This document shows, piece after piece, positions 176 to 6,558 of a DNA stretch of 7,399 bases. The DNA comes from an uncultured Sphingorhabdus sp. Lineage in GTDB: Bacteria > Pseudomonadota > Alphaproteobacteria > Sphingomonadales > Sphingomonadaceae. Both the position numbers and the translations under genes were made by a program. The stretch spans positions 1 through 7,399 of the forward strand of contig CALMYW010000014.1 of assembly GCA_937873665.1 (NCBI GenBank), in the 5' to 3' direction. The number at the start of each line of letters is the position of its first letter. Within the stretch, counting starts at the first letter, position 1. The notes below the pieces were generated by a model that saw only the letters and a program-made list of their open reading frames with translations, had not been told where the DNA came from and searched no databases.

Positions 176-403
176 TCAGCTTTTCGCCAAGCGCTTTTCC
201 GCTTCGTCCAGGCCGAGCTTTCCGAGTGCGGCGAAGAAGCCTTCAACCCGCTCGAACGGTGCCTTGCCGAGTGCCGATTTTCTCAGCAGTTCGGCCATGG
301 CATTTTGCTCGCTTTCCCGCAGCTTCGCTTCGCGCGCTTCCAGCGCGTTTCGCTCCCTTGCGATTGCCTGTCGTTCCGCTTCAAGACTTCCTTTCCTGGC
401 CAT
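176..403 (-). CDS. Small charged helical protein beside oriT, unknown function (75 aa)
   Basis: A 75-residue protein beginning MARKGSLEAERQAIARER. Residues about 6-42 are rich in Glu, Arg, Lys, Ala and Leu and look like a long helix or coiled coil; a second helical stretch (about 50-75) ends KRLAKS. There are no cysteines, signal peptide or membrane segment, so it is probably cytosolic. I chose the start at 403 because GAGG (411-414 on the complement) lies 7 nt upstream; the frame stays open to an ATG at 472, but that start has no comparable ribosome-binding site and the extra residues look non-coding. Size, charge and location resemble the small TraC/TraD-type mobilisation accessory proteins next to oriT in other alphaproteobacterial plasmids, but no diagnostic motif is visible. 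If the proposed nic at 632/633 is right, this is the first gene to enter the recipient. The gene call is firm, the function is not. Confidence 0.75.
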   Translation of the reverse strand: MARKGSLEAERQAIARERNALEAREAKLRESEQNAMAELLRKSALGKAPFERVEGFFAALGKLGLDEAEKRLAKS

Positions 404-624: not shown

Positions 625-654
625 TAGATAGCACACCCTACACGGCAGGGCCGT
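625..654 (-). other. Candidate oriT nic region, F-like
   Basis: On the complement a hairpin ACGGC-CCT-GCCGT (654-642) is followed at once by GTAGGGTGT and then GCTATC. In plasmid F the nic-proximal hairpin is followed by GTGGGGTGT, then the nick, then GGTGC. The 9 nt between hairpin and nick match at 8 of 9 positions with identical spacing, placing a predicted nick between 633 and 632. The relaxase encoded downstream is F/R388-like (MobF), and the polarity is right: the nicked strand would lead leftward, so the tra operon transfers last. The F sequence is recalled from the literature and was not aligned by software. The hairpin stem is short (5 bp). Confidence 0.55.
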
Positions 655-686: not shown

Positions 687-730
687 TTGTCCGCCGCCAT
701 ATGACATGTGTCTGACATCGTGGCGGACAA
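687..730. repeat. Inverted repeat TTGTCCGCC / GGCGGACAA
   Basis: Perfect 9-bp arms (687-695 and 722-730) flank 26 nt. Those 26 nt contain a smaller symmetric element, GACA-TG-TGTC (703-712), and two copies of TGACAT (702-707, 713-718). Nested symmetry like this, close to a candidate nic, fits binding sites for a relaxosome accessory protein. An RNA structure is less likely because the spacer is long. The role is inferred. Confidence 0.5.
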
Positions 731-731
731 C

Positions 732-759
732 GTAAATCCGTCATTTACCCGTCTGACGG
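732..759. repeat. Two adjacent small inverted repeats
   Basis: GTAAAT-CCGTC-ATTTAC (732-748) is a perfect 6-bp hairpin with a 5-nt loop. It is followed directly by CCGTC-T-GACGG (749-759), a perfect 5-bp palindrome around one base; the loop of the first repeats the arm of the second. GTCTGACGGCG (751-761) also repeats GTCTGACATCG (710-720) at 9 of 11 positions, 41 nt apart, close to four helical turns. These look like protein-binding sites of the oriT region. Confidence 0.45.
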
Positions 760-814
760 CGTCACACACCTATTGTTCGCGCCGCTTGACTTGCCAAGCA
801 TGGACCAATCGCCT

Positions 815-860: not shown

Positions 861-1154
861 ATGATGACAGATGAAACCCGCGTCTCCGTTCGCCTGCCAA
901 GGCGGCTTGCCGAAGCGCTCGACAAGGCTGCCGAAGCACAATCGGTCAACACTTCGATCATTCTTCGCGCTGCGCTCGAGACATATCTCGGCACGCTCGC
1001 CGGTGCCGGCGATGCGGAGCGGCGCCGACAGTTCTCAGCCGAGTATGTTTTCCTCGTCGCGGACCTGATCGCCCAGCGCGAATATCCTGATGTCCACAAC
1101 GAACTGTTGACCGAAGCCGAACGCCGGATGGAGGCGCTTCATGGCGCGTCCTGA
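861..1154 (+). CDS. Ribbon-helix-helix DNA-binding protein, TrwA/TraY-like relaxosome accessory
   Basis: 97 residues. Residues 6-13 (TRVSVRLP) form the DNA-contacting beta strand of a ribbon-helix-helix (Arc/MetJ) fold. Helix 1 spans about 14-27, and the SVNTSIILRAALETYL segment is the turn and helix 2. The C-terminal half (about 50-97) is charged and helical and may serve for tetramer formation. Starts at 861 and 864 are both possible; GAGGG (852-856) is 4 nt before the first and 7 nt before the second, so 864 (96 residues) may be the true one. The gene precedes the coupling protein and relaxase, exactly as trwA does in R388. TrwA (about 121 aa) binds oriT, stimulates nicking and represses its operon; the same role is inferred here. 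It overlaps the next gene by 14 nt. A plain transcriptional regulator or antitoxin-like protein is less likely given the context. Confidence 0.85.
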   Translation: MMTDETRVSVRLPRRLAEALDKAAEAQSVNTSIILRAALETYLGTLAGAGDAERRRQFSAEYVFLVADLIAQREYPDVHNELLTEAERRMEALHGAS

Positions 1155-3510
1155 CGCCTGGTCCGATCAGACCCGCCCGGGCAAGCTGCTGCATCATTCG
1201 GCGCGCGGCACGACGCCGCGCAACGCCGGAAACTTTACTCGCGGATCGCAGCTCATCACCCATGAATATCTGATGTGGTTCGCTTCCGCGCGGCTGCCCT
1301 TCCTGGTCTGGTTCTTCGCGTTCCTGTTCATCGTTTCAGTCGCCCTCGCGCTGCGGCTCCAGGAACACGAAGTGCAGATGATCCTGATGCGGATCTATGC
1401 ATCGGGATGGAGCTTCATGGAGTTCAGCAGCGCGAAGATCATCAATCTCACCTTGCCCTCTGGCGAGGTCATTCCCGCGCCGATCGGCATGGTCGCCTCG
1501 CACCCGGATGTGGTGATCGCCTGGAACAAGCTGACGCGCGCGTTCCTCGGCTCGCTGTTCATTTCGCTGTTCGTCGCGCTGCCGCTCACCGTCTGGTTCG
1601 TCGACTATTCGCGAAAGCGCGGGAAGGCCATTCTCGAGGAGCGACACCAGCGCGGCGCAATGCTGGTGGATGCGCCTGCGCTCGCCGCTTCAATCCACGA
1701 ACATAACCGGGCCGCGTTGATCGCGGAAGTTGCCGAACGGGTCCCGGGCAGGACCCTCGAACAGGTCCTCGCCATGCCGCTGGCCGAGCGCAAGGCGTCC
1801 GGCATTCACCACGCCTATACCATCGCCGGCGTGCCCTATCCCTGGCGGACCGAACAGGCCCATGCGATGATGATCGGCTCCACCGGCACCGGCAAGACGA
1901 CGCAGATGCGCGACCTGATTGCCCAGATGCGCGTGCGCCGTGATCGGGCCGTGGTCTTCGATCTCACCGGGGCTTACGTCGAGGCTTTCTACAACCCCGA
2001 GACCGACATCGTCCTCAATCCGATGGACGAGCGCTGCCCGTCCTGGTCAGTGTTCGACGAGGCGAAGAACCATGCCGATTTCATCGGCATTGCCGCGTCC
2101 CTTCTGCCGAGCGACGGGGGCGGAGCGGAGCCCTTCTGGATGCTGGCTGCGCGCACGCTGTTCGTCGAGACTTGCGTCAAGCTTGTACGGATCGGCCAGG
2201 CGACCAACCAGGCCCTTGCCAGCAAACTGATGATGGCCGACCTCAAGGAGGTCCACAAGTTTCTCGAGCGCACCGTCGCCGACCCACTGACCGCACCTGA
2301 GGCGGCCAAGATGGCGGAATCGATCCGTGCCGTGTTCAACACAAATGCCCAAGCCTTGCGGTTCCTTCCCGAGGGCAAGGCGCACTTCTCGATCCGCGAG
2401 TGGATCGGCAAGGAGCACCTGCCTGGCTCGATCCTGTTCATCACCTCCTCGCACACCGAACTGGTGCTCAATCGCGCCCTGCTTTCGCTGTGGATGAACC
2501 TTGCCGTGCACTCGCTGATGCGGCTGCCACGGACCCGCTCCCTGCGCACCTGGTTCTTCTTCGACGAGGTCCACGCGCTTCACCGCTTGCCCGCAATCGA
2601 GGACGGCATGCAGACCGCGCGCGGGTTCGGCGGAGCCTTCGTGCTTGGCATCCATTCCTTCGCCAAACTGTCGGAGACTTACGGCAAGGAGGGCGCGCAG
2701 AACCTTGCGTCGCTGGCGCGCACCAAGCTCATCCTTTCGGCCGCCGATCACGACACCGCCGAGCAATGCTCGGAGTTCATCGGTGAGCGCGAAGTGCGGA
2801 TCATGGATGAGGCTTACAGTTACGGCTACTCGACGATCCGCGATGCCGCGACGATCACGCCGCGCACCGAACTCCAGCCCCTGATGCTCGCATCCGACAT
2901 CATGAAGCTGAAGTCGCTCTATGGCATCCTGGTGTTCCCCGAAGGCTTCGACGCCGCCCGGATCAAGCTTCAATACAAGGACTATCCTGCGATCGCGCCG
3001 GGCTACGTGCTGCGCGAGAATGTCGAGCCGATCGAGTACGTCGCTCTCGACCTTGGAGATGGTAACGAAGACGACGAGGATTCTTCGGAAGAAGCGGGCG
3101 GGCGCGAGAACAGGGATGCGCTTGAAGCCGACCTTGCGCGCGCGGCCGAACCCGTTCCCCGCGAGGCACCGGTCCGCGGATCCTCGCACGAGCATGTCGC
3201 GCGCCAGATTGAGCAGACCGCCCCTGCCAATCCTCTCCCCCAAAACGGCATGGCGGGCCAGATGCGGTTCCGGTCGCAGCCGGCCGGAACCGCATCCGGG
3301 CGCAGCGCTTGCGAGGCCAATCGCGACACCGCGCGCTCCGCGAAGCCAGCCTCCCGCTCGTCAGGCAAGACAACCTCGCCGCGCACGGCTCAGGCAAACC
3401 GCGAGCTCGGCGAGAACCTCGAACCCGACCCGCGCGATGCACGCAGCCGGGATGGCACGTCCCCCTCCCCCGAAGCACCGCCGACCCCTGACGACGGCAT
3501 GGAGATGTAG
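1141..3510 (+). CDS. traD: Type IV coupling protein, TraD/TrwB/VirD4 family
   Basis: A 789-residue inner-membrane ATPase that links the relaxosome to the type IV secretion channel. Two membrane helices (about 52-71 and 135-154) flank a periplasmic loop. The RecA-like motor carries Walker A GSTGTGKT (246-253) and Walker B WFFFDE (471-476), followed by the family segment HALHRLPAIEDGMQTARGFG. LNPMDERCPSW and the FEGFD-like PEGFD stretch are also typical. The usual QSxxQL motif reads HSFAKL (505-510), so both glutamines are replaced. From about 639 the tail is low-complexity, with an acidic run (EDDEDSSEE, 643-651), then a Pro/Arg/Ser-rich disordered region to the end. It is longer than TrwB (507 aa) and F TraD (717 aa), whose C-terminal tail docks the accessory protein TraM. 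GGAGG (1130-1134) is 6 nt before the ATG, confirming the start. It ends 3 nt before the relaxase gene. Confidence 0.95.
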   Translation: MARPDAWSDQTRPGKLLHHSARGTTPRNAGNFTRGSQLITHEYLMWFASARLPFLVWFFAFLFIVSVALALRLQEHEVQMILMRIYASGWSFMEFSSAKIINLTLPSGEVIPAPIGMVASHPDVVIAWNKLTRAFLGSLFISLFVALPLTVWFVDYSRKRGKAILEERHQRGAMLVDAPALAASIHEHNRAALIAEVAERVPGRTLEQVLAMPLAERKASGIHHAYTIAGVPYPWRTEQAHAMMIGSTGTGKTTQMRDLIAQMRVRRDRAVVFDLTGAYVEAFYNPETDIVLNPMDERCPSWSVFDEAKNHADFIGIAASLLPSDGGGAEPFWMLAARTLFVETCVKLVRIGQATNQALASKLMMADLKEVHKFLERTVADPLTAPEAAKMAESIRAVFNTNAQALRFLPEGKAHFSIREWIGKEHLPGSILFITSSHTELVLNRALLSLWMNLAVHSLMRLPRTRSLRTWFFFDEVHALHRLPAIEDGMQTARGFGGAFVLGIHSFAKLSETYGKEGAQNLASLARTKLILSAADHDTAEQCSEFIGEREVRIMDEAYSYGYSTIRDAATITPRTELQPLMLASDIMKLKSLYGILVFPEGFDAARIKLQYKDYPAIAPGYVLRENVEPIEYVALDLGDGNEDDEDSSEEAGGRENRDALEADLARAAEPVPREAPVRGSSHEHVARQIEQTAPANPLPQNGMAGQMRFRSQPAGTASGRSACEANRDTARSAKPASRSSGKTTSPRTAQANRELGENLEPDPRDARSRDGTSPSPEAPPTPDDGMEM

Positions 3511-3513
3511 GCC

Positions 3514-6500
3514 ATGCATTCGATCGCCCCGGTCCGCTCGTCGGGCGGCGCTGCCGCCTATTTCGCTCAGGACAACTACTACACGGTGCAGGAAAACGCG
3601 GAAGTCGGGGTCTGGGCCGGCGAGGGTGCGCGTCTGCTCGGGCTATCGGGCCAGGTCGACAAGGACACGTTTGAAGCGATCCTGAATGGGCGGCTGCCCG
3701 GCGGCGAGATGGTCGGCCAGGTCGAGGGGCGCAGGCTGGGTGTCGACCTCACTTTCTCGATGCCTAAGTCAGCGTCGATCCTGGCGCTCGTCAGCGGGGA
3801 CACGCGCATCCTTGACGCCCATATGACGGCTGTCAGATCGACCATGTCGCAGCTCGTCGAAAAGCAGTTTGCCGAAGCCCGCAACTACGAACGCAATCGC
3901 AATGGTGAGCCTGAGAAGACCGGCAACCTGGTCTATGCGCTCTTCGCCCACGACACGAGCCGCGCGCTCGATCCTCAGGGGCATATTCATGCCGTCGTCG
4001 CCAACCTCACCCGCGATCTCAAGGGCAACTGGAAGGCACTGTGGAACGGTGAGATCTGGAAGAACAATACGACGATCGGCCAGTTCTACCATGCCGCCTT
4101 CCGCGCCCAGTTGCAGAAGCTCGGCTACGAGACCGAGGCCGCCGGCAAGCACGGCGCTTTCGAAATCAAGGGCGTGCCTGCCGAGGTCATCAAGGCGTTC
4201 AGCCAGCGCCGCGAGGACATCCTCACCAAGGCCGAAGAAACTGGCATATCGGCCCCCAAGGGGCTCGACCGGATCACGGTCAACACGCGCGATGCCAAGC
4301 TTGCGGTTGCCGATCGGGAAGCGCTGACCCGCGATTGGCAGGACAGGGCCCAGGCGCTGGGGTTCACCGGCAAGGCGCTTGTCGCCGAAGCGCGCGAACG
4401 GGCTCAGGAACAGGCCCGCCCTTCCTTGCGCGAAACAGCGAGCGCGGCCTTTGCCGAAGTGGCGGCCAGGATCGGTGCGGCTTTGCGTCCACCGAGCGAA
4501 CTGGCCGCGAGCGGTCCGGCTGCGTTTTTGCTCAGCGCCGCCACCATCAAGGCGCAGCATGCCACCGCGTCAGCGATCCGGCATCTCTCGGAGCGCGAGG
4601 CAGCTTTCAGCCTCCAGGCGATCCTGAGCGCCGCGCTTGGCTTCCAGATCAAGGGGCTCGAAGGCAGCGCTGTGACCACGCGGATCGGCGAACTTGTCCG
4701 CGAGGGACACCTCATCCCCGGCATGTCTGACCGGCTCGATGGGCACTACGATCTCGTGACCACACCTGCGGCGCTTGGCCGAGAGCAGCAGATATTGGAC
4801 CGGATTGAGGCCGGGGTCGGCAAAGGCCGGGTCTTCATGGCACCTGACGCCGCCATGGCGCGGCTGCAGGCGGCGGCGCGCGAACTCGGGGTCGAGCGGG
4901 CCGGGGGCGATGGCTGGCAGCTCAATGCCGGACAACTCGCCGCGGGCGTCGCCGTACTGTCGGGCAAGGATCGCTTCCTCAACATCCAAGGCGTCGCAGG
5001 TGCCGGCAAGTCGACCCTGCTGGGTGCGCTTGACAAGGTGCTTGGCGCAGAAGGCGTCAAACTGATCGGCCTCGCCTTCCAGAACAAGATGGTCGCCGAC
5101 CTGCGCGGCGGAGGCACGAGCGCGATGACGGCCGAGCAGATGCGCGAGGCGGGGATTGAGGCCTGGACCATCGCCAGTTTCGTCAACCGTTATGCCGGGC
5201 CTGCGGCACATGGCCATGGCGAACGATTCGAGGCCGCGCGCACCGCGCTCAAGGACACGGTCATCATCACCGACGAAAGCTCGATGGTCTCCTCGCGCGA
5301 CATGGCGAGCCTGACGATGATCGCCGAGCGGCTCGACCTCGCCAAGGCGCCGTTCATGGGCGACCGTCAGCAGCTGTCGGCGATCGAGCAAGGCAAGATG
5401 TTCGCCGTGTCGCAGGCCGCCGGGCAGGCGACCGTGCGCATGGATGAGAATATTCGCCAGAAGGGCTCGCCGCTGCTGCTCGCGGTGGCAGGTCTGTCGA
5501 ACGAAGGCCATGCCGGGCTTGCGCTTGATCTCCTGGCCGCGCACGGCCGGGTAATCGAGGACAAGGCCGACCATATTGCGGCTGCCGCTGACCTCTGGCT
5601 GTCGCTCGCGCCAGACGAGCGCGCTCGCACCGCCATATTCACCGCTGGCCGCGATGACCGCACCCGGATCAACGGCCTCGTCCAGCAGGGCCTGCTCAAG
5701 GAGGGTGGCCTCAGCGGTCCTGGCGTCCCGCTCTCGACGCTGCAAAGTGCCAACGCTACCCGTGAGGAAATGCGCTTCGCCTCGACCTACCGGGCGGGCC
5801 AGGTGCTCGAGGCGCGGATGGACGTGCGCGAACTGGGGTTGAAACGCGGCGAATATGACGTCGTGGCAATCGGCCGCGGCGGCAAGGTGACGCTGGAGCG
5901 CGAGGGCAAAAGGAAGGTCATCGACCCCGACCGGATCGACCCGCAGCACCGCTTCGACCGGATCGGGCTCTACGACCGCAAGGACATCACTCTCCATGAC
6001 GGCGAGACGGTGTTCTGGCGCGAGAAGGACGCTGCCCGTGACATCGCCAAGTCGACCTATGCCACGGTCGTCTCGGCAACCAGGGACGCCGTGACGCTTG
6101 AGCTGGCCGACAAGCGGCAGCTTACCCTGCCCTCGGGCGATCCCATGCTGCGGCGGCTTGATCTGGGCTATGCGCTCAACGCTCACATGGCGCAGGGCAT
6201 GACCCAGGCTCTGGCGATTGAGGTGATCTCGTCAACGCAGCGCAACCTCGCCACCCAGCGCACCCAGAACGTCCTCAATACCCGTGCGACCGATGACATG
6301 CGCGTTGTGACCAACGACCTCGAGGCGCTCAAATTCCAACTCGACCGGACGCCGGGCAACAAGACCTCGGCGCTGGAGACGGTTGGCAGGCTTGATGTCG
6401 ATACCAAGCCGGCGAACCCGATCGAGCCTCGCCAGCTACCCGAACTCAGGATGAGCCCGGAACTGAAGGCGAAGCTTGATGCCGTCCTCGGCCCGGTCGC

Positions 6501-6558
6501 GGCGCCTCCGGTACGCCAGCTCCCTGTCCCGGAAAAGTCGCTGGGACTCGACCTGTGA
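3514..6558 (+). CDS. traI: MobF conjugative relaxase-helicase, TraI/TrwC family
   Basis: 1014 residues, close to TrwC (966) and much shorter than F TraI (1756), so it has one relaxase and one active helicase. It nicks oriT, stays covalently bound to the 5' end and unwinds the strand. Relaxase domain (about 1-300): catalytic Tyr16 followed by Phe17, a second pair Tyr22-Tyr23, Asp78 in DLTFSMPKS, and the metal-binding histidines His146, His157 and His159 in HDTSRALDPQGHIH, at the same numbers as in F TraI. Helicase of superfamily 1 (about 440-930): Q-motif NAGQ (471-474), Walker A GVAGAGKS (493-500), Walker B IITDESSM (584-591), GDRQQL (616-621), DENIRQ (644-649) and YALNAHMAQGMTQ (886-898). 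The tail (after about 930) is Pro-rich. GGAG (3501-3504) is 9 nt before the ATG. It overlaps the next gene by 4 nt. Confidence 0.97.
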   Translation: MHSIAPVRSSGGAAAYFAQDNYYTVQENAEVGVWAGEGARLLGLSGQVDKDTFEAILNGRLPGGEMVGQVEGRRLGVDLTFSMPKSASILALVSGDTRILDAHMTAVRSTMSQLVEKQFAEARNYERNRNGEPEKTGNLVYALFAHDTSRALDPQGHIHAVVANLTRDLKGNWKALWNGEIWKNNTTIGQFYHAAFRAQLQKLGYETEAAGKHGAFEIKGVPAEVIKAFSQRREDILTKAEETGISAPKGLDRITVNTRDAKLAVADREALTRDWQDRAQALGFTGKALVAEARERAQEQARPSLRETASAAFAEVAARIGAALRPPSELAASGPAAFLLSAATIKAQHATASAIRHLSEREAAFSLQAILSAALGFQIKGLEGSAVTTRIGELVREGHLIPGMSDRLDGHYDLVTTPAALGREQQILDRIEAGVGKGRVFMAPDAAMARLQAAARELGVERAGGDGWQLNAGQLAAGVAVLSGKDRFLNIQGVAGAGKSTLLGALDKVLGAEGVKLIGLAFQNKMVADLRGGGTSAMTAEQMREAGIEAWTIASFVNRYAGPAAHGHGERFEAARTALKDTVIITDESSMVSSRDMASLTMIAERLDLAKAPFMGDRQQLSAIEQGKMFAVSQAAGQATVRMDENIRQKGSPLLLAVAGLSNEGHAGLALDLLAAHGRVIEDKADHIAAAADLWLSLAPDERARTAIFTAGRDDRTRINGLVQQGLLKEGGLSGPGVPLSTLQSANATREEMRFASTYRAGQVLEARMDVRELGLKRGEYDVVAIGRGGKVTLEREGKRKVIDPDRIDPQHRFDRIGLYDRKDITLHDGETVFWREKDAARDIAKSTYATVVSATRDAVTLELADKRQLTLPSGDPMLRRLDLGYALNAHMAQGMTQALAIEVISSTQRNLATQRTQNVLNTRATDDMRVVTNDLEALKFQLDRTPGNKTSALETVGRLDVDTKPANPIEPRQLPELRMSPELKAKLDAVLGPVAAPPVRQLPVPEKSLGLDL

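Follow-up and report, generated by a model that had tools for sequence, protein, structure and literature searches.

The minus strand at positions 625–654 of a 7,399-nt stretch of DNA (hereafter, the window) is, judging by sequence comparison, very probably the nic core of a conjugative transfer origin (oriT), and the thumb of the relaxase that would read it has, among relatives, repeatedly changed together with nic bases 20 and 24 as a matched pair. The two resulting combinations, G/G and C/C, would represent two transfer-specificity types.

Setting of the putative oriT

Judged from its relatives, the window would stem from a conjugative plasmid of a sphingomonad. A blastn search of PLSDB with positions 380–900 returned 13 records, every one from a Sphingomonadales genus and typed as conjugative, and plasmid p3 of Novosphingobium sp. 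ES2-1 was the one record that matched the full-length query. The core lies in a gap (404–860) with the minus-strand gene at 176–403 on one side and a plus-strand RHH-TrwB-TrwC operon on the other (Table 1), and GC content drops to 47% at 451–675. Most close records have an annotated gene that corresponds in size and location to the small divergent one, and the annotation of one relative (L014) assigns it to the DUF6437 family; the copy in the window had no Pfam or NCBIfam match. In L014, a single-strand DNA-binding protein gene is annotated at 503–916, on the flank of oriT predicted to be transferred first, a placement that resembles the leading regions of known plasmids.

Table 1. Coordinates of the features discussed in the text (cassette, the relaxase segment that switches with nic type)
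Feature	Position	Strand	Basis or remark
Small divergent gene for a charged protein, leading side of oriT	176..403	-	
First bases of the transferred strand past the predicted nick	625..632	-	Consensus of 38 close rows and alignment
Predicted nick, T25 (633)/G26 (632)	632..633	-	Analogy with the F and R388 records; rules in passages of PMC4176350
9-nt single-strand recognition sequence GTAGGGTGT	633..641	-	nt 17–25 in R388 numbering; putative U-turn 22–25 = GTGT
Hairpin 5' of nic, IR2-like candidate relaxase recognition hairpin, ACGGC-CCT-GCCGT, 5-bp stem, 3-nt loop	642..654	-	Read 654→642
Degenerate second operator-like site	689..705	-	Alignment position against better palindromes of relatives
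RHH-operator-like 7-3-7 palindrome GTGTGACGCCGTCAGAC, 1 mismatch	751..767	-	Palindrome scan
RHH accessory protein, presumed TrwA/TraY-like role	861..1154	+	RHH_1, E 1.6e-7
Coupling protein TrwB/TraD	1141..3510	+	TrwB_AAD_bind, E 9e-158
MOBF relaxase-helicase TrwC/TraI	3514..6558	+	Profile matches
Predicted catalytic tyrosine Y16	3559..3561	+	Alignment with F Y16; invariant in 39 rows
Metal triad H146, H157, H159	3949..3990	+	Invariant
Thumb/clasp cassette, relaxase codons 231–257, switching with nic nt 20 and 24	4204..4284	+	

The relaxase passed the MOBF profiles NF041492 (268.6 bits; cut-off 100) and TIGR02686 (328.3 bits; cut-off 145.5) and has the residues looked for in a MOBF relaxase, namely the HUH triad H146/H157/H159 together with Y16, Y22, and Y23, with F17 at the position of F's second tyrosine. 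The F-type equivalog cut-offs were missed, at 465.8 for TIGR02760 (929.85 needed) and 401.6 for TIGR02759 (521.35 needed); therefore, the window proteins would work like, yet are not filed as, TraI and TraD of F. The layout is that of an R388-type Dtr region, an RHH-coupling protein-relaxase operon whose complementary strand carries nic, and the gene order (RHH-TrwB-TrwC, with the divergent gene across oriT) is R388's and not F's. The MobF relaxase with F-numbered histidines that the first-pass annotation had placed downstream is thus borne out by profile score and triad. So is its proposal that strand and direction are as in known systems, since nic lies on the minus strand family-wide and lies opposite the tra genes in F, R388, and the window alike.

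The predicted nic core and its resemblance to known sites

As the first-pass annotation had described, a hairpin at 654–642 is followed directly by nine unpaired nucleotides (GTAGGGTGT) and then by GCT (632→630, minus strand), an arrangement confirmed in the sequence and kept across the family. In R388 numbering, 17 is the first base past the hairpin and 25 the last base ahead of the nick. By the rules in passages of PMC4176350, a MOBF nic has G at position 17, T at positions 18 and 23, and a purine at position 26, and the window has G17 (641), T18 (640), T23 (635), and G26 (632). The U-turn bases 22–25 read GTGT in the window and GTCT in 25 of the 38 close rows defined below, the latter being also the R388 reading; within 625–632, only G26 and C27 are invariant among these rows. 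In the F record, GTGGGGTGT/GGT was located directly behind the F hairpin, so that the claimed identity of 8/9 bases before the nick holds, and in the R388 record, GTATTGTCT/ATAG lies directly behind the R388 hairpin. The window 9-mer is identical to that of pKM101 at 7/9 positions and to that of R388 at 6/9. The nick marks in the F and R388 words agree with the rules in PMC4176350.

The caution that short matches may arise by chance was justified: the window contains the 9-mer, at up to one mismatch, a single time where 1.41 occurrences would be expected, and the 9-mer alone is therefore not significant. When the word (at least 8/9) was combined with a stem at the right spacing, 2 of 3000 dinucleotide shuffles of 405–860 contained it for stems of at least 5 bp, and 12 of 3000 for stems of at least 4 bp. 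Single-strand folding of 625–654 returned the 5-bp hairpin with a z of only −1.7; for 620–660, the hairpin is the centroid and the minimum-energy structure contains it plus additional pairs, and for a 61-mer from one relative (L034) a different hairpin comes out as the best fold. The fold of the nic hairpin is not unusually stable. What settles the reality of the core is its conservation in relatives.

Conservation of place and strand

An unguided alignment of 11 gaps (the window and 10 plasmids, of which L005 and L006 are identical and L002 and L003 nearly so) contained one block at 625–654, a hairpin and then GTA(C/G)GGT(C/G)TGC, that was kept in 11/11; the check proposed in the first-pass annotation, whether 625–654 is the conserved core of the 404–860 regions, thus came out positive. 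In pLA1 and pCADAB1, both stem arms have changed jointly (ACTGC...GCAGT). Two plasmid loci without the operon, L009 and L012, were left out of the alignment. At L012 (NZ_CP063447.1 182075-193116), a relaxase relative is accompanied by a SLOG-family protein annotated at the place of trwB, no RHH protein is annotated, and the nic core was looked for and not found; the locus is probably a remnant.

From the window and the 10 plasmids, we derived a strict pattern, GTANGGT(G/C)TGC with a stem of at least 4 bp, and scanned genome-contig loci found via the relaxase (80 in all, 74 with at least 3.2 kb upstream and 6 without), some of which are the same as, or close to, the plasmids behind the pattern (e.g., L034, from the same strain as L010). 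The strict pattern was found in the expected gap in 49/74 loci, on the minus strand throughout, and had no match outside that gap in 815 kb. A wider pattern, loosened after the misses had been seen, was found in 68/74 loci with 2 matches elsewhere; L056, L100, and L101, which have the core but escaped this test, bring the total to 71/74. The core of L056 is present with a broken stem. In L100 and L101, a core with one mismatch stands just beyond the stretch that was scanned, its distance to the downstream relaxase being ~2.2 kb where 2.8–3.2 kb is usual, and something between core and relaxase may have been shortened. No core was found in L087, L093, and L099 among the 74; L087 and L093 have in common an alternative hairpin followed by GAAGGATATGG, which stands ~2.93 kb ahead of the relaxase and may be another type of nic. 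The letters of the stem vary among loci (ACGGC, ACTGC, ACCAC, GCACC, GCGG, GCAG, and others) with complementarity kept, and a few rows have one unpaired position within the 5-bp stem register.

A family-wide search found a relaxase relative in 153 of 397 genomes and yielded 60 further regions, at least 9 of which (L141–L149) duplicate contigs or plasmid records already used and are not new samples; 3 were too short, leaving 57 for scanning. With at most one mismatch, the core was present in 46/57, 2.5–3.4 kb upstream and on the minus strand, with no core on the plus strand of these regions and 0/57 in control slices inside trwB; it was absent at that threshold in 11/57, one of which (L167) has it with 2 mismatches. 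It also stands behind relatives whose relaxase domain is merely 45–49% identical to that of the window. In L156, L177, L178, L182, and L189, relaxase relative and nic core lie on 2–4 Mb contigs, which suggests integrated elements.

Copies of oriT without a relaxase were considered and discarded. The hairpin-plus-core pattern occurred at 9 places in 7 of 397 genomes, 7 of them 2.9–3.2 kb upstream of a relaxase from the family-wide search; the remaining two are L201, on a short contig, and L208 (G345:C2:190044-190067). The latter is a second, identical nic copy that equals L204 over 3024 bases in a linear record, probably one left unclosed with its two ends overlapping.

Two nic types and a relaxase cassette

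The close clade comprises 38 rows (the window, 3 plasmids, and 34 loci) with a relaxase at least 78% identical and a readable core. At nt 20 and 24, 13 of these rows have G/G (F-like), 25 have C/C (R388-like at 24), and none is mixed; among 81 ungapped columns of the nic region, these two alone divide the types. Across the 1014 residues of the relaxase, exactly 16 columns separate them perfectly, every one within 231–257. The first-pass annotation would have given up its reading if a GGGTGT core were not conserved among close relatives, and taken literally that conservation fails, CGGTCT standing in 25/38 rows. However, the bases switch with the thumb that would read them, so the change is not drift, and the case for nic is strengthened. 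The nic itself, its place in the gap before the operon, and its strand all hold family-wide; the label "F-like" does not, because two of its bases switch with the thumb and it therefore names an allele rather than a lineage.

When distant relatives were included (82 rows; 56 G24 and 26 C24), 8 of the first 299 residues separated nt 24 perfectly, all in 233–257. One cassette family accounts for 25 of the 26 C24 rows. The remaining row, L061 (57% identical overall), combines C24 with the C-type residues I240, K251, K252, and L256, which its G24 sisters L060 and L072 lack. Three C24 cases among the 46 later matches (L142, L143, and L145, all from contigs or records met before) carry the C-type cassette. 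Strict coupling of 20 with 24 was rejected for the family as a whole, as C20/G24, A20/G24, and A20/C24 occur in distant clades.

Both types were found in one strain in N. subterraneum DSM 12447 (L038 G/G, L051 C/C) and FKTRR1 (L044 G/G, L049 C/C), and also in ES2-1 (p3 G/G, p4 C/C), typed there from the nic sites alone. Two C/C sites share a strain in Sphingobium xenophagum NBRC 107872 (L033/L047), KCTC 2891 (L046/L054), and PQ-2 (p1/p2, L006/L011). In the metagenomic bin of L031/L146, the cassette found on one contig is G-type, and a second contig, L201, carries a C-type nic and stops ~26 bp ahead of the L031 start in L145 coordinates, with no joining contig. This may be a single plasmid whose cassette and nic are mismatched, and hence an exception to the pairing, or there may be two plasmids.

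The cassette as a putative DNA-reading thumb

In an AF2 model of residues 1–319 (mean pLDDT 83.6, pTM 0.83; block means of 68–80 over 231–260), the cassette forms two helices, 232–243 and 248–257, and the best PDB matches of the model are TrwC-DNA and F TraI complexes. A relaxase "clasp" over the DNA is placed at TraI 231–271 and TrwC 237–262 in passages of PMC7826260. For pKM101 TraI, passages of PMC9868005 describe a two-helix thumb that makes hydrogen bonds via R235, R250, and Q256: within an 11-mer that runs up to nic, Q256 bonds to base A6 and R250 to base G10, and R235 bonds to a phosphate. Bases A6 and G10 of that 11-mer are nic positions 20 and 24 here. For R388, portions of PMC4176350 state that TrwC K262 contacts C24 (and also G22) and discriminates at 24, that C24G is badly transferred (down to 10^-5), and that base 20 is free, any base being tolerated. 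As we read the alignment, pKM101 Q256 corresponds to window residue 249 and TrwC K262 to window residue 255, and pKM101 R250 lies in a four-residue insertion behind window residue 245, so that all three counterparts fall inside the window cassette. Evolutionary and crystallographic evidence thus converge, each on its own, on one segment and one pair of bases, and our inference is that nic bases 20 and 24 are read by the thumb in the sphingomonad MOBF family.

Paired exchange or common descent

Even with the nic correctly placed, the link between thumb and bases could be a matter of hitch-hiking, long blocks from oriT to relaxase being inherited jointly and the types separating by descent. We regard this as improbable, although the types do cluster in part. 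On trees of residues 1–220, of residues 270–1014, and of both together, 5, 7, and 6 type changes are needed, respectively, against 1 on the tree of cassette residues 225–262, and labels shuffled on the three non-cassette trees needed a minimum of 7 and a median of 11. Since the trees need 5–7 changes and shuffling never gave fewer than 7, there is some clustering of the types, and the independent sample is therefore about six switches and not 38. The 6 changes on the TrwB tree and the single cassette family behind nearly all C24 rows fit joint inheritance as well.

In contrast, the intervening trwB does not follow the types: the 6 changes on its tree (35 rows) correspond to 6 independent pairs, or only 3 when the pairs are drawn on well-supported branches alone. 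The rest of the same relaxase does not follow them either. A careful cassette-free relaxase tree required 6 changes and allowed 6 independent pairs to be drawn along supported branches. Cassette and nic type correspond in all rows, which gives 6/6 agreement among the pairs (sign test, p 0.03). The cassette-free relaxase rejects a single C/C clade (p-AU 2.4e-68), and a rerun without L063 (4 stops in the relaxase reading) and L057 (truncated) retained 36 rows and 6 changes (p-AU 6.6e-49). Hitch-hiking is further opposed by the restriction of the separation to residues 231–257 and nt 20/24, the bases that the pKM101 thumb contacts in passages of PMC9868005.

Sister pairs of opposite type convey the same pattern at shorter range (7 pairs were compared, 4 of which are given here). 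L056 (G/G) and L047 (C/C) are 96.6% identical in the RHH gene, 92.5% in trwB, and 94.5% in relaxase codons 1–220, and only 43.2% in codons 231–257; their nic words differ at 20 and 24 alone. L040/L050 and L042/L051, with cassette identities of 49.4% and 46.9%, follow the same pattern, identity in RHH, trwB, and relaxase codons 1–220 being 87–97% over the three pairs. In L038/L046, the cassette is 50.6% identical and the other parts are also more diverged. In summary, the thumb and nic bases 20/24 changed together about six times, and trwB and the rest of the relaxase did not follow. Because thumb and nic bases switch as a pair that the rest does not follow, the nic target is identified, and the transfer origin is identified by genetics, not resemblance. 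A crossover exactly at nic was considered as the route of exchange and rejected, identity across the nick having no consistent break in 8 pairs.

Other parts of the gap and other readings of 625–654

Palindromes of the form GTNNNAC-N3-GTNNNAC were found in 24 of 46 scanned regions, the window included, against 0.04% of mononucleotide shuffles, and not in the other 22, distant rows among them; the scan took loci with the core GTA(C/G)GGT(C/G)TGC, and its 46 regions include two misplaced ones (L077 and L097). They stand ~125–139 nt ahead of the core and in some regions also at 73–74 nt, with lineage-specific letters (GTATTAC, GTCAGAC, GTCGGAC), and we take them as putative sites of the RHH protein. 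The site at 689–705 was not picked up by the scan in the window. Between nic and the operator-like palindrome, an inverted repeat at 687–730 (14-nt arms, 86% complementary) folds better than most shuffles (z −2.3). No IHF consensus with at most one mismatch was found in the gap, a weak test with a single pattern, the E. coli consensus, and a promoter and terminator scan of 380–900 found nothing.

The same gap is also the region upstream of RHH-trwB-trwC and contains the operator-like palindrome and the inverted repeat; 625–654 might be a hairpin conserved for some other function (as operator, attenuator, or single-strand DNA promoter), the nick lying elsewhere, e.g., within 687–761. We consider this very unlikely for the following reasons: (i) complementarity of the stem is preserved while its letters change; (ii) the nine nucleotides fit the MOBF nic rules (G17, T18, G22, T23, T25, purine 26); and (iii) two of the nine track the relaxase thumb. 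A nick in 687–761 was itself rejected, as this segment lies outside the conserved core and overlaps the RHH-operator-like palindrome. A nick further down, at the word TATCT/ATA (~622/621), whose letters resemble R388 TGTCT/ATA, is hardly credible, given that these bases are unconserved in relatives and the distance to the hairpin would be wrong.

Proposed mechanism and its meaning

With 625–654 read as nic, the course of events can be modeled on F, R388, and pKM101. The relaxase would bind the hairpin together with the nine nucleotides that follow, the two-helix thumb (residues 231–257) would close over the strand, and bases 22–25 would form a U-turn. Y16 would then cut at 633/632 and stay on the 5' end, and the strand would exit leftward, so that RHH-trwB-trwC enter last.

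The 81-bp stretch that encodes the thumb cassette and the two nic bases are ~3.6 kb apart. On balance, we favor a lock-and-key exchange between two interchangeable types with mutually non-recognizing oriTs, in which the trwB between them does not move along and which may prevent sister plasmids that share a host from acting on each other's oriT. That the types are blind to each other and that this protects co-resident sisters is speculative, and strains with two C/C sites weaken protection as a purpose. The system would amount to a natural experiment on MOBF site choice, one short protein segment and two bases having changed repeatedly; if true, relaxase specificity, and which plasmids mobilize which, would be predictable from sequence.

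Comparison with known systems

The F nic (TraI, MOBF12) resembles that of the window in its hairpin, nine nucleotides, and nick and in the numbering of Y16 and H146/157/159, and all 10 aligned plasmids are typed MPF_F. In contrast, F has traM-traJ where the window has the RHH-TrwB-TrwC order, and 25 of the 38 close rows match F at merely 6/9 bases. The oriT of R388 with TrwC (MOBF11) shares with the window a small protein-TrwB-TrwC order, a divergent gene across oriT, and the bases G17 T18 A19, G22 T23, and T25, and the C/C allele has C24 in common with it and 7/9 bases equal; the window differs in G20, G21, and G24. The gene names are trwA and stbA in R388 and traY in F; the two R388 genes are labeled hypothetical in the R388 record. 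Whereas R388 tolerates any base at 20 according to passages of PMC4176350, in the close clade base 20 switches with 24.

The pKM101 TraI-oriT complex (8A1C), with the nic GTTAGGTGT/ from the base list in PMC9868005, matches the window at 7/9 bases and resembles the sphingomonad case in that thumb residues contact bases 20 and 24; a natural thumb exchange is not described in the portions of PMC9868005 covered here. That sphingomonad plasmids carry a MobF oriT is already known, as passages of PMC7755788 include pNL1 among the MobF query oriTs of the Zrimec 2020 collection, a set with nic sites. In our data, pNL1 (L003/L022) is of the C/C type, and the passages of PMC7755788 on that set contain no mention of two types or of the thumb. 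In the open-licence literature, the titles and abstract openings among the matches listed describe no natural exchange of a thumb with nic bases. Harley and Schildbach reportedly found in 2003, for F and R100 TraI, that a few residues set nic preference between close MOBF relaxases. The F/R100 case is said to concern a designed double mutant, whereas the sphingomonad relaxases differ by a natural 27-residue segment.
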